Shown here in pieces: positions 12,045-47,460 of a stretch of 64,000 nucleotides of DNA (position 1 is the stretch's first letter; every line of letters begins with the position of its first letter). The notes under the pieces are model-generated. The model had not been told where the DNA came from, did not search any database, and saw only the letters and a list, made by a program, of their open reading frames with translations. The translations under genes were made by a program, and so were the position numbers. Origin of the DNA: Nereocystis luetkeana (taxonomy: Eukaryota > Sar > Phaeophyceae > Laminariales > Laminariaceae); contig JARUPZ010000021.1 of NCBI GenBank assembly GCA_031213475.1, positions 3,555,545 through 3,619,544 on the forward strand, read 5' to 3'.

Positions 12045-12532
12045 TGACCACCTGACCACCCCTCCCCCAAAGCAGGTGGACGATGCTAAGAAACTACCAG
12101 TATCGTTTTTAACCCCCGTTCTTCATTATATAGGACTACACTCCCGTGTGGGGACTAAACACTTGAAATTACGGCAGACCCAGATATAGGTCTGTCTGCG
12201 TATCTGGTGCAGTGCAGTGCGGTAAAAAGCCATATCTTCCCTCTGAGGTCACAAAAAAGGTAACCGGTACGTAGGGTATACAACCCGATGCCCGTCTACC
12301 GTTGTCGAGCCGCGAGTATTTAGACCGCGTCCGGTGGTATAGCCACCCCGTGGAGAAAAAAACGTGATTTTTACCACAGAGCTATATACGCTATGCTTGC
12401 AACCCCTCTCGCGCGGTCGTCATATTCCCCAGGTTTACTATTAATCGCCCTGCGAGACCGCCAGTCCGCCAGGGGGAGAAGGGAGGAGGGGGGAGGACTA
12501 CTTCCCATGGCGTGGGGGTGGAATGTAGATGC
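12045..12532. repeat. Module A, left copy (488 bp)
   Basis: It begins TGACCACCTGACCACC and ends GGAATGTAGATGC. It appears identical, as far as I can read, to 26892-27379 in the same orientation. It lies outside the left B module, whereas the right copy lies outside the right B module. It has no recognisable coding content, and an internal segment resembles one arm of the CCCTTTTAG MITE family. Confidence 0.85.
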
Positions 12533-13024
12533 TGTGAAGATATCAGAGGTAATGGTAAGGGTAAGGGACGCAGGTGTTTTCTGGCAGCTGGGAAGCAGTG
12601 CTTCGCTTCTTCTTATATAGATCTTCTTTATTGATGACTAGAGCTGAGGAGGTGCTCTGGTAGAGAAGTGAGAGGTAGGGGGGTGGGACTCGACGCTCAG
12701 ATATACTCGTCCCACCCCACGCTACAAGCTCTCCTAAATTCCTCTTATCTAACGTACTCCTAAATAACTTTCCTATGGCTACCGAACGTTCTTCTGCTAA
12801 TATAAGAACTTCTCACTTTACGATCCTATCTGCGTTAAGGAACATTACTCTTGTCTAACGGCCTATCCGCCTTAGAGAACATTCCTAAAAGACGGTTACT
12901 CTCAACTACCGGAATATCCGCCGGGTTAATCCATTCTTTGGATTATTCTCGTATTCCTCAGGCTACGAAACTGCCGACTATATTATCTATATCTATAGCC
13001 CATGAGCACTCGATTCATATCACA
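12533..13024 (-). repeat. Module B, left copy: probable 3' LTR of the Ty3-type element
   Basis: It starts TGTGAAGATATC and ends TTCATATCACA, so it has TG...CA ends with a short TGTGA/TCACA inversion as LTRs do. It matches 26405-26891 almost throughout, apart from the first ~25 bp and a few substitutions. On the minus strand it is preceded by AGGGTGGGCTAA, a plausible but short polypurine tract. The LTR assignment is an inference: the neighbouring coding region ends 1.4 kb away and no target-site duplication is seen. Confidence 0.5.
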
Positions 13025-13025
13025 T

Positions 13026-14429
13026 TAGCCCACCCTGAATAGTCGTATATGCAGACCACAAGATGGTCGAAGGATGATGACAAAGTTCATCCCAAAAGAC
13101 CAGGAAAAGGTGGTCGAAGATGCGGCTATTCGAAACAAAAGAAATGAGGCTATAGATCCCCCCACACCTCGTCATAAGACCCAAACACTGCGAAGGGGTG
13201 TTTACTTTAGAACAACCACTTAAAGGTAGAGACCGAAGGAGAGGAAGAAATAACTCAAAGCGGAAGCGAAAGCAGAGAAAGGCAAAGCGAAAACCGAAGA
13301 AAGAAGAAAGAAAACAGGAGACAGAACAAAAGCCGAAGCGAAGGCTGAAGAAGAAAACTAGTACCGAAGTGAAGGCGAAAGAAGGGCGCACAAAAAGGTG
13401 CGAACGGAGGTTGGTCGCCGAACCGGGTTGGCAAACTAGGAAACTCACGAAAGGAGGCAGTGACCGCAATACAAAAAAAAAAAACACATATATATTTGGT
13501 AGGAGTAATGCCTTGTCTTGTGGCGGAGGTCCTAACGTGGTAGACATCACTCAAGAGAAACGGGGCACTGCTAAAGTGCAAAGAGGGCTGCGTATACTAG
13601 GGGCTATTAAAACCGGGAGACGGAGCGAACAACGCTGCGTCTGGGAGACCTCTTCGTCGTATGAACTATACCAGCAAACGTAGCAAGGTATTTAACTCAA
13701 CAAGAAAAAAAACTGAAGAAGATCCGCAAGGAGATTGGCCTAATGCGTGCAGTTCAAGGTGGTAGATAGCGCATGGCTAAAACACTAGCGTGTGCAACTC
13801 GGCCAACAGGGGCGACATCAAATATGGTGTCGTTTGCCACAGAGCAGAGGGGCGCGCGGAATACCGAACGAAATATGAAGAAACCTAAGAAAAAGAAAAC
13901 AAAGCACGATCGGGACCAGGAAACTAACTGAAAGCAGAACACGAGTCAGGGAAAATCGATCATGGTAGAACCGCCATGGTTGATAACTCTGCGGCCTTCC
14001 GGGGCGGCAATGCTATCCGGACCCTACTTGGCAAACATAGAAGAAACACGGGCGAGCTGAAAGCTCGATAAAATCTTAGCTCGATGACCGTCTGAAACAG
14101 GGGTCGGTGGAAACCGACGGAGGCCAGGGTACAGCCCAGGCTACGACACGATTTTACCTCGGCGTAGTATTGCCAATAATTTGCGGTAGGCTAGTGAAGT
14201 ACAAACACATATGAAGATTATGGTATCGCTACGACTCGGTGGCCTGAACGTAAGAAGGCAACACGGAGGTGTAGGCGGTATGAAGAAAACAAAAGGTAGA
14301 CGGAAATATATGCACCCAAGAAGCTGGCTGTTGGTGACTATTGAAGACTAACCCTGAAGAACTACTTTAATATATTGTTGACTAACCAGAAACAAGTACC
14401 CAGAACTAAAAAAAAATGCTAAACCAAGG
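13026..14429. other. 3' non-coding part of the Ty3-type element, purine-rich on plus
   Basis: It lies between the end of the integrase frame and the B module. 13190-13480 is markedly A/G-rich on the plus strand and gives Lys/Arg-rich and Phe/Ser-rich shadow frames. No independent gene is recognised. Confidence 0.45.
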
Positions 14430-17400
14430 CTATCCAGGGGGGGGAGTGGAAACCGTGGGGGCTCCGCGGGACACATCAGAGTTCCGCAGCAGCCCACGTG
14501 CTAGGCTCCCATTCCCATGGCGTTGAAGACACCACGATCCGTACACGGCGTTCCGTGCTGTAGTGTAGCGGGCGGGTTGAAGGTCGATCTTGATCGGTCC
14601 GGGGTCATCCAGGAACCGGATGATGTAGGAGCCGCCCGGTGAAGGTTCCGGTGGAGCTCCCGAAGAGACGTCCGGGGGTGAGCGGTGAGCGATTTTGCCC
14701 AGCCACCAGAGGCCGTCGCGCGCTTTGTACCATATGTGCGCTCCGGAGGGGAGGATGGTGGTGCTGAAGTTGTGGAGCCAGAGGCTGCGGGAGACCAGGG
14801 CGTAGCCGGGGGCGAGAAATATTTGTCCTTGGGATCGTGCCAGTTCGCGGTGGGCAGCGCCGATGCGCATCTGGCGGTAGAGGCGGTTCGTCTGGCGGTG
14901 TTGTGTCGGCGCTCCTGACCAATAGAGTAGGATGTTGCGCCGGAAGTGTTGAAGGTCCAGCTCGCGTTCCCAAGAGGGGCTGAGAAGTCCAGCCCAGTGG
15001 GTCTCGTACAGAACGGCGATGACCCCGCCGCGGCCGCGTACGAGTTGATGGCCGGTGATCTGCTCGACCTCGAGGCGTTCCGGTGGGGGAGTGACGTCGT
15101 CGACGGTGACGTGGTAAGGTGGGGACTTGGCGGCAGAAGCTGTGAGTACGTATGTAGTGAGGTCCGCGGGCAGATGCTTGGGGATGTCGCTGGTGTCGTC
15201 GGGGTTCCGGCAAGGTTTGCATCGTTGAACGGAGACGCGGGGCTTGGAGTCCCGTCCCGGAAGGTCGGATGGAAGGTCGAGGAAAAGTAGCTTGTCGTGA
15301 AGAGGGCGGTTGTCGGGGGTGTTCGAGGCGGGCGTCGGTCCAACGGCGAGGACCTTGAAGGGCCCATTCCAGTTAAGGGAAAGCTTCGTCTTGAGTACAG
15401 TTGCGTCGGTGCCCTTTTTGACGCCTTGGCGAATGGTTGAGGCGGAGTTGTAGACCCAAACCCAGCCGCCGACGGTGAAGGGGGGGGATGCTCGGAGGGC
15501 GGCCATGATGGGCGCGTTGCGGCGCTGGAGACGCGAGACGGTGAGTCGGTGTAGTTCGCGGACGAGGGAGTACGCGCGTCGTTGTCGGTCGGTGGCGAGG
15601 TTGATGTAGACCAGATGATCGCGGTCCAAGCTTTGGTGGCCGCCGATGTTGTCGGGTTCGAAGACCGAGAGCGGGAGGCGAGGAAGGCGGCCCATGTGGA
15701 TTTCGTTAGGCGCAAGCCCTGTAGCGGCGTTCACGGAGTTGTTGTAGGCCGACGACACGTGTGGCAGCAGAACGTCCCAGTCGGTCTGCTGTTCGTTGCC
15801 GACCATAGAGAGCATTTGGGCCAACACATGGTTGACGCGCTCGACGCCGCCGTTGGTGCAGGGGTGGTAGGAGCTGGTGTTGACCTTGCGGATACCAAGG
15901 CGCTCGTAGACGATGTTTGCAAGCTTGGAGGTAAAGTGTAGTCCGTTGTCGGAGAGAAGCGTAACCGGGCACCCCCAGAGAGGGATGTATTCGTTCAGGA
16001 AGATGTCGGCGGTGCCGGCGGCCGTGAACTGCGCCGCTGAAACGGCAAACATATCGGCGCGCCGGCTGAAGCGGTCGGTGAAGAGAAGGGTGTGGACGTT
16101 GCCGCGCGGCGTGAGCGGCAGGGGTCCGAAGTAGTCGACGCTGACGGTGATGCCAGGCCCGTTGGGCAAAGGAAGAGAAAGGATGGGCCAGCGAATGGTG
16201 TGCCGGGAGGTTTTCCGCGCCTGGCATTGAAGGCAGCGGCGGATCCACCAGCGGGCGGAAGCGTCCATGCCAATCCACCAAAAGAAACGTGCCAGCATGC
16301 GGACCGTTCGGGTGACTCCTAGGTGTAGAGAGGTGGTGGCGTGGCAGGTGTTCAGCACCCAGGGGCGCATTAACATTGGCACGTAGATGCGTGGGGTAAG
16401 GGGGGCGGGTGGTGGTAGGCTGTTCCCGGGTGGGGGTGGGGGTGGTCGTTGGACCAGGAGGGTGGTTTCGTCGTCCGTACGGTGCAGCTTGCTTTTGGAG
16501 GCAAGGGTGAGGACGTCCGGAAGTTGTGGGCGCCGGGCCGAGGGGATGAAATCCAGGAGGTCGTTCGGCGGGGGGGCAGGGGAGTCCAACGACAGGAAGC
16601 GGATGGTGGCGCAGCACAGGGGCTCTGCTCGTTGTTCTCGCGCCCAGTCTTTGAAGGTGTAGTGCTCGACGCGGGCGAGGAGGTAGGGATCGTCATCGGG
16701 TTCGACGATGGGCTCCGGGAGGGGCAGCGACGGTGGTGCTGGTGCCGGCGGAGAAGGCGTTGTTGGGGGGGTTGGGGTTGGGTTTGCGGGCGCAAACGGG
16801 TCGGGCGGCGCGGGAGCTGTGGCTGAAGGCGCCGTAGGAGGAGGGGGTCTTGGCTGGACCCCGGCCGGGGGCGTGGGCGCACTGGTGGGTGTAGATCGTC
16901 TGCGTACGACGGGTTGTGGTCGACGGCCGAAGCGATAGTCGGCTGTGGGTCGAGGGGTTCCCGCGGCAGCGGCGATGCGATGGCGGGTCCGAGAAGATAT
17001 CAGGCCTGAGACGGCTGGTTCCGTGCCGCCAGTGGTGGACGGCGGAGAGATGACGGACGGCCTGGAAGCCGAGCCTGGAGGAGCTCCGCTGTTCACGGCG
17101 GCGTTCTCGGGGCCAACAAGCAGTCCAGCGGTGGAGTCAGGGGTCGCAATAGGCCCGACGAAGGTGTCGGGTGCGGGGGAAAGGGTGGGGTGCTCCATAC
17201 GTGGTCCCAGTAGGCGGAAGTCGCGGAAATCGTCGGTGGTGAAGGGAAGCGGCTGGATGGTTGGGATGGGCCTCGAAGGGGGGGATACGAGCCCACCCAA
17301 GCCGATACCCGGGGCGGGAGGGTCGTTCGGCGCGAAGCCGCAGGGGCGGATGAGGTAGATGCCGACGGTGTCCGGGCCGGTAAGGCGGTTGCGTCCGGTG

Positions 17401-18569
17401 CGGTCGGCGTCGGTGGCGGGTTGGGGGAGCCGGGAGAGGAAGTCGGCGTTGCCGTTGGACGTGCCCTTCCGGTATTCCAGCGTGTAGGTGTACGCCGAAA
17501 GGAACTCGAGCCAGCGCCGGACGCGGGCGTTGTGTTCTCCGACCTTGGCGATGTTCTCGAGCGCCTTGTCGTCCGAGTAGATCTGGAAGCGGGTGGACCA
17601 TAAATGTCCACGGAGGCGTTTGATCGCCCACACGATGCTCCCGGCCTCGAGGTCGAGGGGTGTCCACGAACGTTCGGAGTCCAGGGTGGCACGGCTGATG
17701 AAAAGGATGGGTCGGACTGAGCCGTCGGGTTGTTCTTGCTCAAGGGTCGCGCCGAAGCCGTCGATGCTAGCGTCGCAGTAGAGGCGGAAGGGGCGGGAGT
17801 TGTCGGCAACGGCGTCCTAGTCGGGGTAGACGAGGATAGGCGGTTCGGCAAGTTCTTGCAGGATGGCGCGGACGGTGGTTTCCATGGCGGGGGTGAAGTC
17901 GAACGTGGCGCCTTGCTTGAGTAAAGCGTTGATGGGGCGCAGACGTCGGGAGAGATTCGGCAGGAACTTGCCGTAGTAGTTGATGCCCCCAAGGAGCGAG
18001 CGCACTTGCTTCTTGTCGGTCGGCATGGGCATTCTGGTGAGGGCGGCAACCTTGTCGGAGTTGGGGCTGTATCCGCCGGCGGAGATGGTGTGCCCCAGGA
18101 AATCGGCGGTGGTGGCGCCAAGTTTGGCCTTGGCCGGGGAAAGTTTGAGGTGGTGCTTCCGGAGGCGTCCGAAGAGAGCTCTGATGTTGGCAACGTAGTC
18201 GTTGGGGTTGGGGTCGAAGACGATGATGTCGGCGAGATACGCGGCGACGCGTTCCAGGCCTTTGATGACCTCGTTGACGACCTTAACGAACCAGCCGGGG
18301 GAGGCGCTGCTGCCTTGTGGCATAACAAGCCACTCAAATAATCGGTTCGGTGTGCAGAACGCTGTCAAGGGGATGGTGTCCTCGTCGATGGTGATTTGGT
18401 GGAACGAGGAGACCAGGTCGAAGAGGGAAAAGATGCGACCTTTACCCAAGGAGTCGAGGACTTCGTCGACGCGGGGGATGGGGAGTTGTCCGAGGGAGAT
18501 GATGGCGTTGAGCCTCTTGTAGTTGATTGTGATGCGAACACCTCCGTCTTTCTTGGGGATGGCGACCAT
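14430..18569 (-). pseudogene. Ty3-type pol: reverse transcriptase, RNase H, integrase, chromodomain, Tudor-like domain (decayed)
   Basis: One reading frame runs from 18569 to 14430 with a single in-frame TAG at 17817-17819. The reverse transcriptase (18569-17820) shows NYKRLNAI, FDLVSSFHQI and FLGHTIS, but its active-site box reads YLAD instead of YxDD; the Ala codon is at 18231-18233. RNase H follows (YCDASIDGFG, then GTSNGNADFLSR). A Pro-rich linker of ~300 residues precedes the integrase. There the zinc module (His431, His437, Cys467, Cys470 of the 1067-residue segment after the stop) and Asp500, Asp562 and Glu598 (D-61-D-35-E) are all present. A GPFKVL (GPY/F) motif, a chromodomain (15077-14919) and a Tudor/agenet-like segment with WYKARDGLWWLGKI (14747-14559) complete it. 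A one-base frameshift at about 18570 separates it from the upstream frame. The chromodomain suggests targeting to marked chromatin. Confidence 0.9.
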
Positions 18570-21534
18570 AGGGCTTGGAGTATGGCGACGTGGAATGCTG
18601 GATCAGGCCGGCAGCCAGGTACTGGTCCAATACGGCGTCGGCCTTTTTGGCGAGGATGGGGTTGATCCTGTAGGGGCGGGAAGTGACCGGTGCGCTGTCC
18701 GGAGGTACCGTGATCTTGAACGGCATTAGCGAGCACGAGCCGAAGTCGGTCTTCGACGTGGAGAAAACGTCCTGGAATTCGCAGAGGACGTCGCCCAAGT
18801 TGTTGATCACCGATGGGGTCCATCCAGAACCGTGAAGGTCGAAGTTGACGTCGCGTAGGTGCAACGGCAGGCGTTCCCAGAGGTCGAGGAAGCTTTTGCG
18901 CTGGTCGGTGTCGAGGCGTGCAAGGAGCTGTGGGCACGGGGCTTTTAGTGCGGTAGAGGGGTCGGCTGTTGATGGACTCTGGTCGGCCACCGGGATGTTG
19001 TTGTGGAGGGCATGTACGTCCGGAAATGGAGGGGGGAGCGGCGGGTCCAAGGAGGGATGCCCAAGGGTGGCGAGCGGTACCTGTACCAGTGGGGAGCAGG
19101 AGGTTCCGAGGAGGTCACCCGGCTCGAGTTCGGTAGATCCAGATAGGGGGACCGTTTGGTACCCGTCGGAGACGAAAATCGCCGTGTCGGAAAGGGGGTT
19201 CTCGCGGGGGAGCATGTTCACCATGTAATTCCCGGCCAATGCTGGAGCGCCTGACTGGCGCACCAGGTTGACCTTGGCGAGCTGTGGGGTAGAGGAAAGC
19301 GAAATAGCTTTGTTGCCGGCGAATCGGAGGTGGTAGACGTCGTCAGTGGAACGATCGTCGGGAATGAATGCTGAGGCTCCGTTGGGGTCGTGGTGACTTA
19401 AAGAGAGCTCACCACGGGTTTGCCGGGAAGGTTGGTGGGGGAGGGCGGGCTGTTGCCGGAGCGTGGTATACGAGCGGTGCTCGAAGCGCATCCAGCTGTC
19501 TCGTCCCAGGAGGATGGGGTGCTGCATGGTTCCAGCAGGAACTACGCAGGCCCATACTGCTAGGGCAGCGGTGGGGGTCTGGAGGCGCATAAACTGGATG
19601 CTTAAGCGGATAGAGACGGAGGTGGAGAGTGGGGCTGAGGTGCCGAAGCCTCCCCATGAACGGGGGGAACTGTGCCGTTCGCAGGCGTCGGTGGCTGACT
19701 GGGAGGCCTTCAGTTGTTCCACCGCGGTTGCGGCGATAAACGACTGGGGCGAGCCGGTATCGAGCAGTGCCACGAGTTCGCGGCGGGTAGTGGCGTCGGG
19801 GCCGCTGTGCACGAGTACCTTCGTCGTGAACGACGCGTCCTCGACGGTGATGATGCCGCCTGTAAGGAATGGTCCGTGTTCCGGTATCGGCGGCCGACGG
19901 GTAGGAAGGTGGCTGTGGGCTGCGGTGTTGATGGTGGACACTTGGGCGAAGTGGCTGATGGGGTAGGCGTCGGGTGTAGACGGCGGTAGAAGCAGCCCAA
20001 GTGGGGAGTTAGGCGGTTGCCGTGGGGGGGTCGGGCTTGTCTCGTGGATGCCGTCGGCGGTGGGGAAGACCCGTGTTGAGTCGGTGGAGGCGGGTGTTTG
20101 CTCTGGGTCGTTGGGACTGGTACCAGTAGGAAGTTGGGGGAGGCGATCGGCGTCGAAGCTTTCTCGGACGTCCATCAGTACCCGGCCCAGCAGATTCCGA
20201 CCACGCCAACGCGTCGGAATGCAGGCGTCCGGATGGTCGGCCTTGAGGCCTATGCCCCAGATGAGGTCGTGTGGGCTGGCCTCGGCAATGTGTTTGTCGT
20301 CCGTTGCCGCCAGCTCTCGCCGTAGCTCCGAGTGTTGGCGGAACTTGGAGAAGTTGATGTTGAGGACGATGTTGTAGCGGTGTCGCTCCCAAACGAGTTC
20401 GTCGAAGCCGAAAACGGTGCGCCCAAGTGCTTTTTGGTCGGCCGGGTCGCGGGTCGCTTTGATGCGGCGCTCAGTTGTGGTGTCCCCGAAGAGCGCAGCC
20501 TTCTGCGCCATCATCATCTGCTCGGCGCAGTTGTATGTGACGCCATCGTGTTCAATGTCGCACAGGTACCACTGCGAAAAGACGGAAGAGGAGTCCCAGA
20601 AGAAGTGAAAGGATGAGGGGGCCTCTGCGGTGGTGTGAGCTGTTGATGGCGTGTTGGTTGTTGGGGGTGGGGGGCGACGATAATTAATCCTATCGCCACC
20701 TGGCGTCGACGGGGGTAGAGTCAGCCACGATCGAGCGGTGCTGACCGGAACCCTCGTGTTCGCGGGGGAATTGCTCGGCAAAGCCGAGGTACCGGGGGGG
20801 TCCACGCCGGGGCTTATACGCCGGGCGAGACGACCCTGAAGGGTGTTGACGATAATTTTTCTATCGCCACCTGGCGTCGACGGGGGTAGAGTCAGCCACG
20901 ATCTAGCGGTGCTGATCAGAACCCTCGTGTTCGCGGGGGAATTGCTCGGCAAAGCCGAGGTACCGGGGGGGTCCACGCCGGGGCTTATACGCCGGGCGAG
21001 ACGACCCTGAAGGGCCCTGTCGTCCAACTTCTGGAGGACAGGGGGATACTCGCTAGGAGATACCACACCTGGGGCCCGTGTCCACGCGTTGCACAAAGCA
21101 GGCGAGGAGGACGGGGCAGGGGGCTCAGGGCATGTCCTGGTCGACGTTGGTCGCGAGTCTTCCGTTTTTAATACGGGACTGCCCCTCGAGCTCAGGGGCA
21201 GCGGTGGTGTCAACACCGTGGCAGCGGGTGGAAGCCCGTCGTTCGCGGGTCCAACGCTGTCACAAGAAAGACGCGCATGCTGGAACAAGCGCGTATGGAG
21301 CGGCCAATTAGAGGCAGGCTCAGGGGGCGATGGCCCGGTCGACGAAACGGTAGTTTCGTGTGAACCGGAACCGCTGGTAGCCGTAATCGTCGAGACGTTT
21401 CCCAGGGTAGCAATGTCTGGGGCCTCGGCAATGGTCGGCAAGTAGCGTTGCTCACCGCCGGAAGACGTCGAGTGGAGCATCCTGGTGAGGCTCGGCGTCT
21501 TGGCCTCCTCCCGCCCACACCTCAAGGCAATCAC
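18570..21534 (-). pseudogene. Ty3-type element frame with NADAR domain, aspartic protease and start of reverse transcriptase
   Basis: A frame of ~988 residues before the frameshift. Residues 1-300 are Ser/Pro/Thr-rich and contain two copies of a ~51-residue repeat. Residues ~306-462 (20621-20149) are a clear NADAR/YbiA-type domain: FHFFWDSSSVFSQWY, NCAEQMMMAQKAALFGD, RYNIVLNINFSKF, EASPHDLIWGIG and GRNLLGRVLMDVRE occur in the family order. NADAR proteins act on ADP-ribose or N-glycosidic derivatives. A retroviral-type aspartic protease follows, with LLDTGS at 19767-19750. The frame ends in the fingers of the reverse transcriptase (RPYRINPILAKKADAVLDQY) and is then shifted by one base near 18570. 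The start at 21534 is the first Met of the frame; entry from Gag by frameshifting is possible but unproven. Confidence 0.9.
20691..21014. repeat. Two direct repeats of ~153 bp, period 171 bp
   Basis: 20691-20843 and 20862-21014 are near-identical (both start TATCGCCACCTGGCGTCGAC). They keep the reading frame of the NADAR-containing polyprotein, because 171 is divisible by three. The encoded unit includes GRLARRISPGVDPPGTSALP. Confidence 0.85.
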
Positions 21535-21718
21535 TTGAGCAAGAGGATCAGTGCTTGAGCAAGTGGCTGGGAAATGGGCTGGGGTAGGGGGGGGGGCATG
21601 CGGGGGCAGGGGTCTGGGAGGCGTGGTGCACGTGATTTACGCGTGCGTCCTGAGAGCCTCGGGTGGTCGCAGTAGATGCTGTTGGTGGAGATGCGGCAGG
21701 TGCTCCACCATCGGCTTG

Positions 21719-23335
21719 TCAGTTGGTGCGGAAGGTTCCCGGCTGCCGTTGGTTCGAGTGGGTGGTCGAGTTGTTGCTGCCCATCCGCATGTTCGCGGGG
21801 GCGGCAGGTGCGGACGTGTTGGTCGCAGGGGTATGAACCGTCAACGCGGAAGACGAGGGGGCAGGCTCGATGCGTTGTTGTCGGAACTGTTGCCCTGGCG
21901 AGTGTCGGTTGCCGTTGTCGTAGTTCCGGCCGTTGCTATGGCGCCAGTTGTTGGAGCGCCCGTTGTCGCCGCGGTAGTTGCGGGAGTGGTTATAGTTGGA
22001 GCGGCTGTTGTTGGAGTTTCCGCTACGGTTGGTGTTGTTGCCTCGACGGTTGTTGTCGTAGCGGTTGGAACTCCGCTCCAGGTTGCGCTCGTATTGCCCC
22101 CGGCAGTAAGAGAGCATCCTCTGTTGCCACTGGCGGTAGGCCTGACCGTCGTCGTTTAGCTGTCCGAGTGCCGGGTTTAAGATGCCGGACGTGGTGAGGA
22201 AGCTCTTGGAGCAGGTCTTCTGGCTATGGTCCGTGCCATTGCAGTTGAGGCAAAGGTCACCGTGAGCGCGTAGGGCTTGGGCGTGGGACACCGCGACGTT
22301 CCGCCTCCGTCATGGGCTCCGTAGAGGCTCTCGTCACCAGGCTGAGCGCTCGTGTGGGGGGGGGCGCTGCCGTCGTGGGAGGTGTTGTCGAGGTGAGAAG
22401 GGGCGGTGTCGCCGGCGATGGCGTATCCGTTGTGGGGCGGGTGGTTGGGGGTGTCGGAGGGGTGGGTCGAGACTCGGTCGGGTTCCACACGTAGCCGCGG
22501 CCGGCGTTGGAGTGGAAATACCTTAGCTCGAGTAAAAGGGTGTGGGCGGCCCCGATGAACTCGGACGAGGCACCCTCGGTGGCGGCGCGGGCCAGAACGA
22601 AGGTGATCGACGGGTCGCAGTCGGGTGTGAACAGTCGCCAGACGCGGTGTGCCGCTATAGAGACATCTGAGGCTATCGGGTCGCGTGTACTCTGCATCCA
22701 GCGGAGCTTGGCGTCCAGAAAGACCCAGTCATTTGACTCAAAGCCGAACGTCTGCGGTTGCCGGTGCCCAGTGGGTTTGGGGGCTGGCAAGGATTGAGCC
22801 GGTAGTGGTGCCTGGGACATTGTGGTCCCAGCTTGGTTCTGGGGGCGCTGGGAGGTGGTGGTCCTAGACATCGCGGCGGACGCAAAGGGTGGTCCAGGGT
22901 GCGGAGCCGACGGCTGCGGTTGGGCCGTGGTGGCCGTGGTCGCAGCTGCAGTCTCGTAGGTGTGGTTGAAGGGGTAGGAGAGGGCGGTAACACGAGTAGG
23001 AGGTCAGCGCTCTCTTTCGCAAGAAGGAGGAGCTGCTCGTGGTGGGCTTTGAGGGCCGCGCGGCGCTCACGGAGGGCCGTGGGATCGCCTTGGTAGTGCC
23101 CCGGATTGAGAGCAGGGGTGGAAGTTTCCTGTGCGGAGACTTCCGGTTTGATGGTAGGCCCGGCACTGGTCGTGCCTGCTCCCAGTGGAGAAGATCCCGG
23201 TGTGGTGGGGTGTAGAGCGAGGTCACTCAGAATGGTATCGAAGCCGGGGGTGTCGTCGTCCGTGGCGCGAGAGGGCCTTGCGGCATACCTCGCCTCGCGG
23301 GGGTTGGTGGTGTCGGTGGAAGGGGCGCCGGGCAT
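21719..23335 (-). pseudogene. Ty3-type Gag with CCHC zinc knuckle (frameshifted)
   Basis: Three overlapping frames make up one Gag. The N-terminal part (from 23335) is acidic and Pro/Thr-rich. The capsid-like middle (22871-22257) contains a helical stretch with WVFLDAKLRWMQSTRDP. The C-terminal part (22291-21719) contains CLNCNGTDHSQKTC, a perfect CX2CX4HX4C nucleocapsid knuckle at 22252-22211, then an Asn/Arg/Ser-rich RNA-binding-like tail. First and last parts are in the same frame and the middle is not, so two compensating frameshifts are likely. Gag would package the element's RNA in cytoplasmic particles. Confidence 0.8.
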
Positions 23336-26300
23336 GTCGGTGGAGGAAGTTGGAGAGGGCTGGTGGATCCAGGCTTGGATCAGGGTAGGCGGCTACAATA
23401 CCAACAAACCGATCTAGGGGACAGAAAGGAGTGACGGTAAGGACGTACAATAAGGGGTATTGAGGGGGGTGTGCCACAATTATAGTGCCCGTCGAAGGAT
23501 ATTTTTCTAGTTGAGGACGTCTAGCTAGTTTCAGGCGCCTCGCGTGTGATTGACGGTAGTCGCGCCCGAGTCACTCAAGTGATATCAGTTGAACCGAATT
23601 GAACAGAACTCCGTCTGAAATGTCCAATGTTCGTAGTGATAACAGGGCGTGACGATTACTGGGCGTGGGCAGTGCAAGACCTTTCGTTGGGATACAATTA
23701 GAGTACCCGTAAAGGCAACGTGTAGGTCGAGTCGGGGGGAAAATTGCAGCATGCCGGCACTATTTGGTAGCTGCACAGCATATCGGGCGATTCCCTACTT
23801 GAACGGTGGGCAGTTTTTCGTTCCGTGGTAGAAACAGACAGCAACCGATACGTTTCGGGGGTCGCGAGGCCCGATACGTTGTGAGATACTTAGGGTATCG
23901 TAGAGGTGGCACAAGTGGGAACAAAAATAAAATAAATAAAAATAAGAAATAGACCCCGGTACGTAAAAACATGGAAAAGAGTATCAATCGGCTCCTTTGG
24001 GGGAGTCGAAGACGCTAATCCGCCGCGAAGGATGTTGTGTATTGGTGTTAGTTTGACCAGCATTTAGTTCATCACTTTCGGAAATGGTCACTGCCCGGGC
24101 CACAGTTACTATGCTCCATATTCGAGCAGCTTGCAGCAGCTGTTTTCGTGATGAGCTGGACAAACATGGGAGAAACAGTTGTCTACTAGTTTGTGTAGCC
24201 TTTGTGGTGTTACGGTTCTAGGCAGCCTGTACCCTGCTTCATTTGTAAAAGCTGGTGGGGGTGGGGTGCGTTGGAAAATAACACTTGTTACAAACTTGAA
24301 CAGTGTCTACCCTGCTTTGATTTAAGGTGGGAGCTAAAAAGAAACGATTAGAAAAAAAGAAGAAGACACACGTCGAAAACAAAAAAGAAAGGGAAAACAA
24401 ACACGACCAAACTAATATTCGGGCCAGATCAGGTAGCATACATTCTGTTTTGATGTGCTACAGCTGGGGGAGGGTAGACGTATACAGCAGTAGACAAAGT
24501 TGCGCGCCACAAAGCTTCGTTTCGTCGGTAACGCTGAGGAACGTGCACGTAAGAGGCTGTAGCCGGACATATTTGTGCAGCATATATATACCTTATTTCT
24601 GGCTTAAAACTGGCAAATTTAAATGCACCTAGGCAGCAGACGGACAAGGTTCGGCAACATAAAGCCGCTTTAAGTCGATAATGCTGGAAGACGTGCACGT
24701 AAAGAGCAGTAGAAAAAAAAATCTAAAAATAATAGACATCGTTTGTATCCTATAGGCCGTGGGGGTGGGGCATAAATGGCAGAAATCCGATTAATTTCCG
24801 CAGCATGCGTCCTGTATTTATAGTAGTGCAGCAGGAAAGTAGTGCATCATAGAGCCTGTTCTGCATGGTAGAAGCAGCGTGTGGACGGGCAATCTGAAGA
24901 GGGGTACAGAAATATAAGCTGGTCCCAATGAGCAACATTTAAAATCCTCCTGCAGATATATTCCTAAAGAGCTACGTGCAACCATATAAGAATTGTCTAC
25001 AGGTATACCTGGTATTCCCAGAGCGCTACCCGTACGTGTGTGTTCTTCGCATTGTATATACGTGCAACCAGGTAAGGTTCGCCTACGTACGAGTATAAAT
25101 ATATGCATTCCTATACGGTGGATGTGCTACACCATCACATCAAGAAAGGGGCACCGACCGTGCATCGTTTGTCTACCTAAATATATCGTGAGGAAGGAAG
25201 GGGGGGTTCACGGGAGATTTCGTCACTAAAATAGTGTTACGTACCCCTATTGGTACCTCGCTCGTATACCAGACTAAGTAGGCTACTATGTGTGTGTGTT
25301 GAAATCCTGTAACCAAGGCATTCAAATAAAATACCAGGTACATTTATGGCTATTCTCGCTGTGGGGGGGGTCGCCAGTATGGTTAATTCATACGTATACT
25401 ATCGCTCGTATCAGGTACCAGGTACCAGGTATGGTCGTTCAATAACTCGCAGGCGAATATCCCACGCAATGGATACCAATGGATACAATTCGCAATTATA
25501 GCCGAGCCGTTCGTGGGCTGCTCACATATGCATATAATAGGAATGGCGTATTTAGTCACACAACCGCTGTTCCTAAAAAAAAAAAAAAACACGTATCAGT
25601 ATACTGCTGCGGGTGTCCTACCAGTACTACAGCAGCTTCTTTGTAGTCGTGGTAAGGGTCAAATCCCATACAACGTTTGTCTATACAGGAAGGTGCAGAT
25701 AAAATGGCGGGGGGGTTAATGTGAGCAGTTCCACCTACTCTTTACGTGCCTTCCCTATGAAAGGGCGGGCATACATCGAAGCGGAGGGGGTCATTGCTGT
25801 AAAAACGCTTTCGTTGTTGTGCGCGATGAGCACGATGTCATTTTGGGGGGGGTCTCCAGGTGCATTCAACCACATGGTGTCACGTATCGTGGAGGTGATC
25901 GATCTCGTCATTCCACGGCGGAGGCGTGGTACAGGGCGCGGAAAAACAAACCTCATCACACTGCCGAGAGCAACAATAGTACTTATATGACAAGTACCTA
26001 CTAAGAAACAGCAGAGAGAAGTTGTGCGTACTTGTACGTGTGCCTGATAAGGGGGGAAGAATGCGTCTACTCACCTATACTAAGAGGGGAGAAACGTCTA
26101 CTGTCGCCACTAGGCAGCTTGTCACAGTCGTCGGCACTAAAAACACACTCAGGAACGCAGGTTCGAAAAGAAAAAAAAGAAAGAAAGAAAATAGACCGCG
26201 AGGAAAACGAAAGAAAGAAAATAGACCGCGAGGAAAACGAAAGAAAAAACGAAACAAGGAACGAAAAGAAACAAAAATAAAAAGTTGACTTCAAAACCAG

Positions 26301-26404
26301 TTGCCTCCCGGGTAGGGATGGCTCACATGATCGTGAGAAGATCTAGAAGAAGCGCTGCAGTCCTCAGCTTGGCCAGAAGGTTCGTCGAATGCGAAGACGT
26401 CAGA
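23336..26404. other. Long 5' leader or unrelated DNA between Gag and the right LTR-like module
   Basis: About 3 kb with no recognisable gene. It contains two loosely similar segments (24480-24560 and 24630-24715, sharing ACGTGCACGTAA) and a pair of 30-bp direct repeats (26180-26240, AAAATAGACCGCGAGGAAAA). Whether it all belongs to the retroelement or includes later insertions cannot be told from one copy. Confidence 0.4.
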
Positions 26405-26891
26405 TGTGATGATATGGCCGAGGTAAGGGTAAGGGACGCAGGTGTTTCTGGCAGCTGGGAAGCAGTGCTTCGCTTCTTCTTATATAGATCTTCTTTATTG
26501 ATGACTAGAGCTGAGGAGGTGCTCTGGTAGAGAAGTGAGAGGTAGGGGGGTGGGACTCGACGCTCAGATATACTCGTCCCACCCCACGCTACAAGCTCTC
26601 CTAAATTCCTCTTTTCTAACGTACTCCTAAATAACTTTCCTATGGCTACCGAACGTTCTTCTGCTAATATAAGAACTTCTCACTTTACGATCCTATCTGC
26701 GTTAAGGAACATTACTCTTTTCTAACGGCCTATCCGCCTTAGAGAACATTCCTAAAAGACGGTTACTCTCAACTACCGGAATATCCGCCGGGTTAATCCA
26801 TTCTTTGGATTATTCTCGTATTCCTCAGGCTACGAAACTGCCGACTATATTATCTATATCTATAGCCCATGAGCACTCGATTCATATCACA
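26405..26891 (-). repeat. Module B, right copy: probable 5' LTR of the Ty3-type element
   Basis: It begins TGTGATGATATGG and ends TTCATATCACA. It is near-identical to 12533-13024 except near its first 25 bp. On the minus strand it is followed by TCTGACGTCTTCGC, where a primer-binding site would be expected; I cannot match that to a tRNA. Confidence 0.5.
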
Positions 26892-27379
26892 TGACCACCT
26901 GACCACCCCTCCCCCAAAGCAGGTGGACGATGCTAAGAAACTACCAGTATCGTTTTTAACCCCCGTTCTTCATTATATAGGACTACACTCCCGTGTGGGG
27001 ACTAAACACTTGAAATTACGGCAGACCCAGATATAGGTCTGTCTGCGTATCTGGTGCAGTGCAGTGCGGTAAAAAGCCATATCTTCCCTCTGAGGTCACA
27101 AAAAAGGTAACCGGTACGTAGGGTATACAACCCGATGCCCGTCTACCGTTGTCGAGCCGCGAGTATTTAGACCGCGTCCGGTGGTATAGCCACCCCGTGG
27201 AGAAAAAAACGTGATTTTTACCACAGAGCTATATACGCTATGCTTGCAACCCCTCTCGCGCGGTCGTCATATTCCCCAGGTTTACTATTAATCGCCCTGC
27301 GAGACCGCCAGTCCGCCAGGGGGAGAAGGGAGGAGGGGGGAGGACTACTTCCCATGGCGTGGGGGTGGAATGTAGATGC
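26892..27379. repeat. Module A, right copy (488 bp)
   Basis: It appears identical to 12045-12532, but here A follows B, while on the left A precedes B. Its borders fall exactly at the same bases as in the left copy. Confidence 0.85.
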
Positions 27380-28229: not shown

Positions 28230-28375
28230 CAGTGTGTTGGCCGCTCCAATTGTCCATCCAATAATTCCATTCAATAGACAGCACCCATAAAATGTTGTCG
28301 GGACAATTCCATTTGATAGACAGCACCCCAAATCTGTTGTCGGGACAATTCCATTTAATAGACATCAGATCTGTC
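28230..28375 (-). repeat. Fragment of 42-bp minisatellite, ~3 units, inverted
   Basis: Units of GACAATTCCATTTGATAGAC and AGCACCCCAAATCTGTTGTC are the complement of the array at 46626-47460. This is a separate locus of the same tandem repeat. Confidence 0.75.
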
Positions 28376-29827: not shown

Positions 29828-31250
29828 TCAGCTATCCACGGCGGCGCTTCGAGGTTCATCTACGTTACGCTGGACCCCCCGTGCAAACGCGCTAGCCAAG
29901 TGAATTTTCAGACACCAAGAATCTCGTACAGCTTTCGGCGAAGTCGTGTAGCACGCAGGAGATTGAGGAAGCTTAATGGGTCCCGGGTCGTCCAAACATC
30001 GAACCAAATAAACTCCATCCGTCGGCGTAGTCGCGCTGACTTTTCCGAGCCACCACAGGCCGTCGTCGTCCTTGTACCAAAAATGGGCCCCGTTGGGAAG
30101 CACGGTGCTGCAGTATCGGCGAAGCCAGTCGGCGTGCGAGACGCAGCCATAGCCGGGTGCCAGAAACCGCTCGCCGTTGCTCCGAGAGAGCTCCCGTTGT
30201 GCCGCGCCGATTCTCATCCGGCGGTACAGGCGGTTGGTTTGGCGGTGCTGGTTCGGTGTGCCGGCCCAGTAGCGCAAAATTGCGGGGCGAGAAAGCCGAA
30301 GGTCCGTTTCTCGTTCCCAGAACGGGCGGGACAGTCCTGTCCAGTGCGTCTCGTAAATCATCGCGATGACGCCACCTCGACCTCGAACCGATTGGTGTCC
30401 GGCAATCTTTTCCACTTCGAGTCGATGAAGAGGGGAGATTTTGCTGGATACGTTGTTGAGCACGCATTGCGTTAACCCCGCAGGCAAATACTTCGGCATG
30501 TCGCCACGGTCGTGGGGATTGGCACAGGGCTTGCAGCGTTGAACTGATACACGCCGGCGAGCATCCGCGCCGGGTATATATCGGAAGAAAGATCCGAATA
30601 CAGGAGCTTTGCCCCCGAGAGGGGATCCGTCCGGGGTGTCCGCTGAGGAGCAGGGGCCAACTGCGAGGACTTTGTAGGGGGCCGCCCAGTTGAGTGAGAG
30701 TTTGGCCTTGATCGCCTGCACTAACCCACAGCCCCACCACCGTCACTTGCACCAAGGGAGGGACCGCTACCATTGCGTGCACTAGCCGACGCGCCTCTGG
30801 CTTTCGGAGAGTTTGTCGAAATCGGGTTGGACGTAGCTCTCGACTTATCACATCCTTCTGTCCGCTTCCGACGCGTCGTGGGGTCATCCTCGTCCTCTGG
30901 GCACGCGTACAAAAGTCGTACCTCGTTCGCGCTGGCAGCGTCCCTTAACCTGCCAGGCACAGCGGCTTCCGCTTGCTCGTCAGTGAACTTCGGGACTTCG
31001 CGCGGAATGAAGTCGACGGCAGCTGTCAAAAGGAGAAACATTTTCAACGAGCGCCGGGTCTGAAGAGCCGCGGTGTCTTGAAACGCGGTGTCTTGAAACG
31101 ACTTGGCCAGCGACGCAGAAGTCACGCTCAAGTACTGCCGCCGAGGCAGGAGCACCCAACACGGATTGCGCGGCACTTCGCAGGGCAGGTGACCGCGGGT
31201 TTCCATGCTGACGCCAGTACGCGTACGTGTTCTTGGCGCTCGGCTACGCC
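29828..31250 (-). pseudogene. Second Ty3-type element remnant: pre-integrase linker joined to GPY/F, chromodomain and Tudor-like tail
   Basis: 29828-30721 encodes 297 residues colinear with the end of the 14430-18569 element. It shows KAKLSLNWAAPYKVLAVGP, a chromodomain with IYETHWTGLSRPFWERE and a Tudor-like segment with WYKDDDGLWWLGKV. Upstream, another frame (30722-30887) continues the match. Further upstream, 31000-31250 matches the linker that precedes the integrase (VDFIPREVPKFTDEQ against LDFIPSARRPQLPDV). The integrase zinc module and catalytic core are absent between these blocks, so this copy has an internal deletion plus frameshifts. It is clearly diverged from the first copy, so it is an older or different family member. 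Confidence 0.75.
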
Positions 31251-40094: not shown

Positions 40095-40278
40095 AGAGGT
40101 CGGCTGTTAATTGGAATCTCCGGACAGAAGGTTTGGGATGCTGTCTGTCAGTTGGAATTGTCCCGACAATAGATTTGGGATGCTGCCCATCTATTGGAAC
40201 TGCCCGACAATATATTTGGAATTGTCCCGACAATAGATTTGAGGTGCTGTCTATTAAATGGAATTGTCCCGACAATAG
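40095..40278 (+). repeat. 42-bp minisatellite, left part (~4 units)
   Basis: Units of GGAATTGTCCCGACAATAGA and TTTGGGATGCTGTC are the same and in the same orientation as at 46626-47460. It ends at CCCGACAATAG, where the LINE begins. Confidence 0.8.
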
Positions 40279-40366
40279 AGATGCCGGTTAGGAGAGGAGG
40301 GGGGTCATCCACCAGGGCCACACGGAACGGTAGGGGAGGGCGAGTGATTGCAGCATTCGCCACGGA

Positions 40367-41770
40367 TTGGTGGAGGAGGTCGCCTTCGTGCATGTGTCCT
40401 GCTCATGCGTGGTGCACCGCCGTTGCGCCCTAGGCTTCGTTGAAGATGCAATCCCCCGAGCCAGGGCCAACGTGACACGTACGATCACACACCAGGTCAC
40501 GTGCCCGAACCCGGCTCTACATGCGGTGCACCAAGATGTGGATCTACACCCTCTTCTCCAACAGATCAGGGGTCTCGGTAGATCGGCGGATACGGCGGAA
40601 GAGAGAGCCATAGGTGCCAGGGTCGACGTAGCGGAGCTCCGCCTTAACGGGAGGCCCACCACCCCAACCGGAACGATAGATTTGTCGAGGAGTGCAACTG
40701 AGAGAGGGGAGGAGGATATTTGGGGAGATGGGCGTGGCACGGCCCCTCAGCTGGCACAAGTGGAAGCGCCGTGCGGGCCCTGTGGAGAGCAAGTTACAGA
40801 CCGTAACAGGTTCTCTTTCGCAGGTTGGCTCGCTCATACGGAGTGTGCCGTGGAAAACGTACAGGGGGCCTCCGACAGGGGAGACGATCGGTTCGGGGTA
40901 GCCATCCCAGAAGGGAATGGGCCGCTCCGTCGGAGAGCGTTCCGTCTCACCCAGATACTGCCGAGGCTACACCTACGTTATGACGGCGCCACAGAGGCGG
41001 GTGCCCACAGAAGGAGACAGCTGGAACGATCGTGGCGGTCAGCGATTTCGCAGGATGAGGACGCCGCGAACCCAGCTCAAACCCAACAGGCAGAAGGGAG
41101 GGAGAGAGGGGAGGAAGACGCAGAGTACACGTACTACGGACAGGCTCTGGAAGATTCGCCAGGGGCGTCCAGGGGCATTCACATGCAAGTACCCGTCCCG
41201 TGCTCCCACGGGGGGTTTGTGCACGCCAGTTGCATGCTGGAACGAGCAGACCGCCTCGCGAGAGGGCATACAGACCCGAGGTCCTGCGTCGCATGCCGCC
41301 ACGAGGGGGCCGGGGGAAGACGACCCCCCCACCCGGCGGAGCTTGCTATTGACTTACCAATGGCCGAGTCGGGGGGAAGATGGGCAACGTTAAGGAGCAC
41401 CATGCAGTTCGCCGACCTCCTTCAACGGGACGCCCCAGGACCGGGGCCGGCTAGTTACCTGACAACCGGCGTATACCGCTCATTCGAGCTCATGATACGT
41501 GCCCACGGGAGGAGCCCAACCTCTTCGTTCCTCTTGTTCTCCCTCTTCAGCGATGCTCTGGACCTGCCTCAAGCGGCCTACCTTGATTTCCCACGCTCGA
41601 GGGAATGGGAAGTGGCTGTCGGCCGCTACCGTACGCGATTCGCCGCGCTCGGGATTCGATCGCAGGATGTCCAGATTCGATTAACTAACCGGAGGCTCTA
41701 CATTGGGCCCCATGTTCAAGAATACTTGGCGGGCCTCGACGCTGTGTGGGAGGAACGCTTGACAAGATAA
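40367..41770 (+). CDS. LINE ORF1-like protein with RING-like Cys/His clusters
   Basis: 467 residues. The N terminus has VSCSCVVHRRC and, 30 residues on, VTCPNPALH, like the second half of a RING finger; the true start may lie upstream. A pair at CGPCGEQ and AHTEC begins a second cluster, and VPCSHGGFVHASC with SCVACRHEG closes it (around 41192-41310). The rest is charged and not recognised, and the last ~130 residues are more globular (FELMIRAHGRSPTSSFLLFS). RING or PHD fingers may mediate nucleic-acid or protein contacts. The frame is open throughout, unlike ORF2. It could be the N-terminal part of a single polyprotein rather than a separate ORF1. Confidence 0.65.
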   Translation: MVEEVAFVHVSCSCVVHRRCALGFVEDAIPRARANVTRTITHQVTCPNPALHAVHQDVDLHPLLQQIRGLGRSADTAEERAIGARVDVAELRLNGRPTTPTGTIDLSRSATERGEEDIWGDGRGTAPQLAQVEAPCGPCGEQVTDRNRFSFAGWLAHTECAVENVQGASDRGDDRFGVAIPEGNGPLRRRAFRLTQILPRLHLRYDGATEAGAHRRRQLERSWRSAISQDEDAANPAQTQQAEGRERGEEDAEYTYYGQALEDSPGASRGIHMQVPVPCSHGGFVHASCMLERADRLARGHTDPRSCVACRHEGAGGRRPPHPAELAIDLPMAESGGRWATLRSTMQFADLLQRDAPGPGPASYLTTGVYRSFELMIRAHGRSPTSSFLLFSLFSDALDLPQAAYLDFPRSREWEVAVGRYRTRFAALGIRSQDVQIRLTNRRLYIGPHVQEYLAGLDAVWEERLTR

Positions 41771-42780
41771 CCCTCGGCGTTCAAAACGCGCTGGCGGAAA
41801 AGTAGCGCGCTCCCTCCCTTTCCGGTGGAGGCGGTGCCCTCGCCGGGAGGAAATGGGCCACCAAAACGAGGGAAGCCGGGATACCACGGCGGCAGAACAA
41901 CCCATAACGCCCTGGACAAGGTCCGAGGCCGCGTCGACAACCCCCGGACCGACAGTGCCAACCAACGTGAGGGAGGGGGGAGCGATCGCAAGGGGTAGAC
42001 GAGGCCGATCGAGAGGTTCTGGGAGGGGTTCACAAGCAAGCAGTGCAAGGAGAGGGGCCGACGCGAGTACGGAGCGAAACGCCAGGCGGGGGGGTAGTGC
42101 GCCACCCTCTTCAGCAGGCGGGAGGGGGAGAGGGAGTGGGGGGAGCGGAGGGAGAAGGGGAAGCGTGGGGACCCGGGGGAGCAGAGGGAACGGGGGGAGC
42201 GGGGGGGGAAGGGGGAACGGAGGGAGCGGGGGGAGCAGGGGGAGCGGGGGAAGCGAGGAGAGCGGAGGGAGTGGGTGGGGCGGGGGAAGCTTGGAGAGCG
42301 GGGGGAACGGGAGTAGCGAGGGGAGCGGGAGGAGCGGGGGAAGCGATGAGAGCGGGAAGAGGGGGTAGTGCGCCACCTTCGTCAGCAGGCAGGGGGTGGG
42401 AGGGGCGAGCGGGGGCGGGGGGGGGGGCGAGAGAAGCGAGGGGACCGGGGGGGGGGCGGGGTGGAGGGAGCGAGGGAGGCGGGGGAAGCGGGGGGAGGGG
42501 GGGAGGCGGAGAGAACGGGGGAGGCGGAGGGAGCGGAGAGAGAGGGGTGAGCAGATAGGGGAAGGGGAGTGGAGGGCGAGGGGGGCGAGGGAGGGAGGAG
42601 GGGGAGGAGGGAGCGGAGGGAGTGGGGAGGGGTACCGAGAGCGAACGTACCAGAGAGGAGAGAGATAGTGAGGGTGGAGGAGAACCGGAAACGGGAGGGC
42701 CGCGGAATGGTGGGGAAGGAGGGGGGAGAGAAGGGAGAGAGACGAGCCAAAGAAGTGGAGGAAGAGGAGCCGCAATGGAC
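41771..42780 (+). repeat. Purine-rich low-complexity spacer inside the LINE
   Basis: From about 42100 to 42770 the plus strand is almost entirely A and G, with units such as GGGGGAGCGGAGGGAG. A block containing GTAGTGCGCCACC recurs at 42093 and 42366. All six frames are open for long stretches (Gly/Arg/Glu-rich on plus, Pro/Ser-rich on minus), which is compositional. A short upstream frame starts at 41853. Confidence 0.7.

Positions 42781-46583: not shown

Positions 46584-46626
<43 letters not shown>
46583..46626. repeat. (AAT)n tail of the LINE
   Basis: About 14 AAT units directly precede the first minisatellite unit on the right. The truncated copy at 37321-37545 carries a shorter version, so the repeat belongs to the element's 3' end. 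Confidence 0.85.
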
Positions 46627-47460
46627 GATTTGGAGTGCTGTCTATTAATTGGAATTGTCCCGGCAATAGATTTGGTGCTGGGTATCAAATGGAATTGTCC
46701 CGACAATAGATTTGGGGTGCTGTCAATCAATTGAAAATGTCCCGACAATAGATTTGGGGTGCTGTCTATCAATTGTAGTTGTCCCGACAATAGATTTGGG
46801 GGGCTGTCTATCAATTGTAATTGCCCCGACAATAGTTTTGGGGTGCTGTCTATTAAGTGGAATTGTCCCGCCAATAGATTTGGGGTGCTGTCTATTGTCC
46901 CGCCAATAGATTTGGGGTGCTATCTATTGTCCCGACAATAGTTTTGGGGTGCTATCTATCAAATGGAATTGTCGCGACAAGAGATGTGGGGTGCTGTCTA
47001 TTGAATGGAATTGACCCGCCAATAGATTTGGGGTGCTGTCTATTAATTGGAATTGTCCCGGCAATAGATTAATTGTCCCGACAATAGATTTTGGGTGCTG
47101 TCTATCGAATGGAATTGGACGGGCAATAGGTTTGGGGTGCTGTCTATCAATTGGAATTGTCCCGCCAATAGATTTGGGGTGCCGTCTACCAATTGTAATT
47201 GTTCCGCCAATAGCTTTGGGGTGCCGTCTATTAAATGGAATTGTCCCGCCAATAGATTTGGGGTACTCTCTATTAAATGGAATTATCCCGGCAATAGATT
47301 TGGGGTGCCGTCTATTAAATGGAATTGCCCCGCTTATAGGTTTGGCCGTCTATTAAATGGAATAGTCCCGGCAATAGATTTGGGGTGCTGTCTATCAAAT
47401 GAAATTGTCCCTACAATAGATTTGGGGTGCTGTCTATCAAAGGCAATTGGACGGGCAATC
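46626..47460 (+). repeat. 42-bp minisatellite, right part (~19 units)
   Basis: Tandem units of GATTTGGGGTGCTGTCTAT and (C/T)AAATGGAATTGTCCCGACAATA, 38-48 bp each, with variants. It continues the array found at 40095-40278 on the other side of the LINE. Open frames through it are repetitive shadows. Confidence 0.9.

Follow-up and report, generated by a model that had tools for sequence, protein, structure and literature searches.

A YbiA-type NADAR domain in the Pol polyprotein of a Ty3/Gypsy retrotransposon family of the brown alga Nereocystis luetkeana

Introduction

Why would a retrotransposon of a brown alga carry, directly ahead of its protease, a domain of the NADAR family, whose members are described as reversing guanine ADP-ribosylation (PMC11543638, available text)? 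The question is raised by a Ty3/Gypsy long terminal repeat (LTR) element on contig JARUPZ010000021.1 (C21 below) of Nereocystis luetkeana assembly GCA_031213475.1. The stretch of DNA analyzed, referred to throughout as the window, is 64,000 nucleotides long (contig positions 3,555,545 to 3,619,544), and the element spans window positions 12533-26891 on the minus strand. An earlier note on this DNA had proposed a NADAR domain between Gag and the protease of a Ty3 element, and both the profile matches and the order of the domains bear this out.

Domain identity and active-site residues

The NADAR domain of YbiA type (20158..20604, minus strand; C21:3575702-3576148 in our search of the genome) occupies residues 345-493 of a 1064-residue open frame (18442..21636, minus strand) that runs from a proline-rich leader through NADAR, a linker and an aspartic protease to the start of the reverse transcriptase (RT) region. 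The profile search suggested in the earlier note gave a strong match to Pfam PF08719 (E = 3.1e-47, 161.3 bits against a cut-off of 35.1). NCBIfam TIGR02464, riboflavin biosynthesis intermediates N-glycosidase, is the best equivalog for the domain and also scored above its cut-off (152 bits against 73.7). Among solved structures, sequence matches were obtained to 8bau, a NADAR domain-containing protein (E 3.7e-18), and to YbiA (2b3w). The protease region follows in the same frame (19306..19785, minus strand; C21:3574850-3575329) and is 99% identical to that of sister copy L027; it is assigned by its motif, LLDTGSPQSFI, as the Pfam scan of the window frames returned no match for it. NADAR and protease had been described as sharing one frame. 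The motifs do lie where they had been placed, in a single open frame, and the strand is the minus strand; a plus-strand reading of 18442-21534 is ruled out by 23 stops in its translation.

Eleven side-chain contacts with ADP-ribose are given for a Phytophthora NADAR in the available text of PMC11543638. These were mapped onto the window domain through the alignment with 8bau; the motif was used to deduce that the numbering is shifted by two and that 8bau is that Phytophthora protein. Nine of the contacts (E43, K50, K75, R79, W89, R93, E125, D130 and W133) are unchanged in the window and two are similar (Y84 to F and D86 to E), while the backbone-amide contacts G78 and V81 are identical as well. 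With its contact residues retained, the core of the domain is intact, as had been thought. In the first motif, the glutamate and the lysine (Phytophthora E43 and K50) are numbered E39 and K46 in the window domain, and these two, together with G72, W83, E119 and W127, are invariant in an alignment of 53 rows chosen from homologs. E119 is the glutamate of the EAS motif (E125), a mark of the YbiA subfamily; at this position the BC4488 subfamily is reported to have D and phage NADARs H (PMC11543638, available text). The domain is probably an active N-glycosidase.

Copies in the genome

The genome searched comprises 465 Mb in 1987 contigs. As would be expected of a brown alga, a group marked by large EsV-1-7 families, at least 150 matches to the EsV-1-7 repeat were scored among 1713 candidates, against none in 14 control genomes. 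Of 778 candidate places for NADAR, 150 were scored and all 150 were over the cut-off. At least 122 of these are followed on the same strand, at a distance of 629-853 bp, by the protease of the element, the partners being drawn from two protease lists (107 of the 151 entries of the second were used). Because of this association we conclude that NADAR is a module of the element and not a local host exon. The domain recurs at the same place in many copies, which disposes of the single-locus host exon that the earlier note had set against its own proposal. Seen from the protease, a listed NADAR lies upstream in 97 of the 150 places of the first list, and the other 53 have none among the matches listed. 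Conversely, 28 of the 150 NADAR matches have no protease partner among the matches listed. A reading of these partnerless domains as host genes is contradicted for five of the 28: the three that were retrieved are all copies of sublineage B (defined below), and two more are element copies L012 and L017.

Many NADAR-bearing copies have open frames of more than 2000 residues. Fifteen LTR pairs had both members among 40 listed places; ten of these were retrieved, each enclosing a NADAR match. Over about 490 bases, the two LTRs differed by no mismatch in six pairs, by one in three and by three in one, in a sample that was chosen as the best matches to one LTR and may lean to young copies. Target-site duplications of 4 bp, with junctions read by eye, were present in all ten copies. 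The element family is high-copy and recently mobile.

Sublineages and constraint

The window copy belongs with copies L017-L022 and L024-L031 to sublineage A, while L012-L016 and L023 form sublineage B; NADAR precedes the protease in both. The two sublineages are 76% identical in RT and 50% in NADAR, and synonymous sites between them are saturated or nearly so. Within sublineage A, the ratio of nonsynonymous to synonymous substitution (dN/dS), a check that the earlier note had recommended for the domain, is 0.40 for NADAR (15 copies, bootstrap 0.19-0.84), equal to that of RT (0.39; 13 copies, bootstrap 0.23-0.71). Identities were also compared between ten sublineage rows in all 45 pairings; as the rows share descent, the pairs are not independent. 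NADAR is more alike than protease in 34 of the 36 pairs that have both values. These are signs that NADAR may be under selection rather than carried along.

Several results weigh against such constraint. Identity is higher in RT than in NADAR for 44 of the 45 pairs. Both exceptions to the comparison with protease involve the window's own sublineage, paired with P0126 (NADAR 49.0%, protease 55.0%) and with P0130 (46.4% vs 51.7%), and the pair of A and B is nearly tied (50.3% vs 49.7%). The dN/dS values come from few copies, decaying ones among them, and the value for the protease within sublineage A is 1.37 (0.65-4.18), from few changes.

The NADAR of sublineage A is 46-52% identical to those of the nine other rows, which are 49-85% identical among themselves. 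In RT, sublineage A is closest to B, yet its NADAR is about equally distant from all nine. Either a domain swap or fast change in sublineage A may account for this odd domain.

Phylogeny and a remote Ty3 relative

In a tree of RT-RNase H built from 63 rows, the brown-algal lineage forms one clade of 28 rows (support 100/100). Sublineage A was placed in it through sister copies L027 and L018, the RT of the window copy being interrupted. The clade takes in proteins of Ectocarpus CCAP 1310/34, including P0125 and P0131, both with PF08719. NADAR is present in the same protein in 17 of the 28 rows, and most of the other 11 start too late to show one; P0133, from this clade, carries a NADAR remnant. 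In P0144, an early-branching relative by RT, the 301 residues ahead of the DSGS motif contain no NADAR, but the frame may fall short. In the NADAR trees the element domains do not form one clade, and sublineage A stands apart from the others. A single NADAR clade is not rejected by the approximately unbiased test (p = 0.139), which set 15 element rows beside a selection of 36 others and left out the metagenomic protein P0122.

P0122 is a protein of 1560 residues, known from one member sequence and encoded in one open frame on a metagenomic ENA contig of 6105 bases. Pfam matches identify NADAR, RT, RNase H, integrase and a C-terminal Macro domain at 1339-1435 (E = 1.9e-19), and a protease-like motif, ALIDTGS, follows NADAR. 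The RT tree places it in a Ty3 clade that is remote. It shares 51% identity with the Pol of L027 over 125 residues of NADAR and 31% over RT-RNase H, and because of this difference its NADAR was probably gained separately or passed between lineages. In the viral contigs searched, no relatives of P0122 or of the brown-algal Pol were found. A further protein, P0121 (SAP and NADAR), was set aside as a retroelement candidate because its listed Pfam set includes no retroelement domain.

Function of the domain

The explanation that we favor, tentatively and at a little short of even chances, is that the Pol-borne NADAR removes ADP-ribose from the nucleic acids of the element, or from similar conjugates, within the particle. 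The domain would be made as part of Pol, freed from it by the adjacent protease and packaged with RT and integrase in the virus-like particle. There it could strip ADP-ribose from bases in the RNA or cDNA of the element, guanine being the base on which NADAR activity is documented, or else from comparable conjugates, proteins among them, and reverse transcription would thereby be protected against host ADP-ribosylation. Packaging, activity, substrate and benefit are what we infer; a particle enzyme acting on the element's nucleic acids or proteins appears the simplest account because the contact residues are kept, the domain lies beside the protease in Pol, and it is constrained. A role against ADP-ribosylation or in NAD-linked defense, as the earlier note had raised, would fit both the conserved active site and the joining of NADAR and a macrodomain in the P0122 polyprotein.

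An active NADAR could instead work on small molecules, either intermediates of the riboflavin pathway or soluble signals derived from ADP-ribose, and so tune host metabolism or blunt an alarm. The TIGR02464 match points to such substrates, and a survey of viruses proposes, in its available text, soluble ADP-ribose derivatives as targets of phage and viral NADARs (PMC9503650). Fusion to Pol beside the protease would rather suggest action in the particle, and we regard the small-molecule explanation as unlikely. Catalysis would be unneeded if the ADP-ribose pocket served for binding, docking on ADP-ribosylated host chromatin or RNA or aiding the packaging of Pol. Putative chromatin-reader domains occur in families of the published lineages, according to the available text of PMC12477816, so that the reading of host chromatin would belong to their biology and a docking role would suit them. 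A pure reader needs no catalytic residues, however, and these persist, alongside those that contact ADP-ribose, both in the window and across the 53-row alignment, so that binding alone is improbable. A passenger without function, of host or bacterial origin, would agree with the defective state of the window copy and with the interrupted frames of the three partnerless sublineage-B copies retrieved. Set against this are the conservation of NADAR above protease across sublineages, a dN/dS equal to that of RT, and recurrence at the same place together with presence in Ectocarpus relatives, which make an accidental passenger very improbable.

The ADP-ribose-removing particle enzyme has its own difficulties. 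A source for the modification is weakly seen in the genome: an exon-by-exon search, positive in the control genome of Deinobacterium chartae, found no match to a DarT-type toxin, and one partial PARP match and two partial macrodomain matches were obtained, although split exons could hide more. The linked DarT toxin of a DarTG1 antitoxin was thus not found for this NADAR. The riboflavin-intermediate equivalog, as noted, points to another substrate. In sublineage B, the EAS glutamate is replaced by K in row L007 of the element-NADAR alignment and in two of the three partnerless copies retrieved. P0122, for its part, begins after the first glutamate of NADAR, and it is a single record for which an assembly error is possible.

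A domain that removes ADP-ribose has seemingly been installed directly before the protease at least twice in Ty3 elements, in the brown-algal lineage and in the remote lineage of P0122. This might reflect a host defense by ADP-ribosylation and its reversal by an enzyme borne on the element, an idea that we consider possible but somewhat doubtful. If it is true, hosts would ADP-ribosylate the nucleic acids or particle proteins of retroelements, and retrotransposons would carry reversal enzymes as RNA viruses do. Reversal of ADP-ribosylation by NADAR in the particle would imply an unrecognized host control of retrotransposons.

Structure of the window copy

The window copy is bounded by a 5' LTR (26404..26891, minus strand), which is matched by the LTRs of a sister copy on contig C33, and a 3' LTR (12533..13023, minus strand), delimited by comparison with the same copy. 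Both end in TGTGA...TCACA, so that the pair has the TG...CA ends of LTRs, and the two differ at 7 of 486 aligned bases, besides 7 gap columns. The Gag region (21722..23003, minus strand) is split into two overlapping frames, 22260-23003 and 21722-22309; it contains a CCHC knuckle, CLNCNGTDHSQKTC, found by eye, and the Pfam scan of the window gave no match in it. Just upstream of NADAR lies an in-frame direct duplication (20690..21014, minus strand) of a 154-bp segment at a spacing of 171 bp, or 57 codons, and the translation of L027 shows the same repeat. The RT (17820..18602, minus strand; Pfam RVT_1 E 3.3e-26) is in a different frame from NADAR and protease, with the frame change near 18.5-18.6 kb. 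Its frame is closed by an in-frame stop at 17817-17819, and its motif reads YLAD where the sister copy has YLDD. On these three counts the RT is dead, in agreement with the earlier note. RNase H, integrase (H2C2 and rve) and the C-terminal part of Pol follow at 14433..17816 (minus strand), where RT_RNaseH (E 1.9e-26) is matched, Integrase_H2C2 (E 1e-14) is over its cut-off and rve, at 25.1 bits, is below its cut-off of 32.6. The order of protease (by motif only), RT, RNase H and integrase is that of Ty3. No chromodomain was matched by Pfam in the window (E up to 1) or in the Pol of L027 (E up to 0.1); those of the published Gypsy lineages are called putative by their authors (PMC12477816, available text). 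With its split Gag frames, offset RT frame, stop and YLAD motif, the window copy is a defective member of the element family.

Instead of a 4-bp target-site duplication, which is absent from the window copy, the element is flanked by a 488-bp direct repeat on the plus strand. One copy (12045..12532) adjoins the 3' LTR and is 100% identical to the second (26892..27379), which adjoins the 5' LTR. They are the sole two full-length matches among 40 scored places in the genome. The repeat could be a giant target-site duplication, a product of recombination or an assembly artefact.

Elsewhere in the window, a fragment of a related element at 29831-30742 (minus strand) shares 54% identity with the C-terminal part of the window Pol. 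A second RT frame at 43996-45270 (plus strand; RVT_1 E 1.2e-15) perhaps belongs to an element like a long interspersed nuclear element (LINE), and two frames ahead of it, at 40334-43808, gave no Pfam match. A minisatellite array occupies 46623-47459, with relatives at 28263-28367 and 40098-40283.

Comparison with known systems

The earlier note knew of no described Ty3 lineage with this domain, and in this it was overtaken: a Gypsy lineage of Ectocarpus in which Pol starts with a NADAR of the YbiA type was reported in 2025 (PMC12477816, available text). In the open-access literature, judged by title and with subscription papers and preprints outside its scope, we found among the papers listed no other publication on NADAR retrotransposons and none on retrotransposons bearing a macrodomain. 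The kind of element is therefore known already; the present analysis contributes the constraint, indications of recent activity, a further brown-algal genome and the lead given by P0122. The Ectocarpus oddity now extends to another brown alga, in many copies, of which a sample inserted recently. The published lineage of Ectocarpus sp. 7 (Gypsy-12_Ec32 and relatives) is alike in that Ectocarpus proteins P0125 and P0131 share an RT clade with the window sublineage. The host genome here is larger, at 465 Mb against about 200 Mb, and for Gypsy-12_Ec32 the comparison draws on its description in the available text.

The same text places a NADAR in ORF1 proteins of Tx1 LINEs of Crassostrea gigas, likewise retrotransposon proteins. 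These elements are non-LTR and, as far as the text of that paper tells, carry a divergent NADAR in ORF1, not in Pol. The NADARs of Phytophthora nicotianae (8bau, by the inferred match) and of DarTG1 antitoxins are of the same family and conserve E43, K50 and E125 among other ADP-ribose contacts (PMC11543638, available text). They are free-standing or toxin-linked, and their removal of ADP-ribose from guanine is documented, whereas that of the element domain is putative. RNA-virus polyproteins with NADAR or macrodomains, as described in the available text of PMC9503650, likewise hold an ADP-ribose-processing domain inside a replicase polyprotein; those viruses use an RNA-dependent RNA polymerase and are not LTR retroelements. 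P0122 is like the window element in having NADAR directly before a protease motif, RT, RNase H and integrase, and differs in its remote RT clade and its additional C-terminal macrodomain. With NADAR and a macrodomain in one Ty3 polyprotein, P0122 would make the idea of element-borne reversal of ADP-ribosylation more general.
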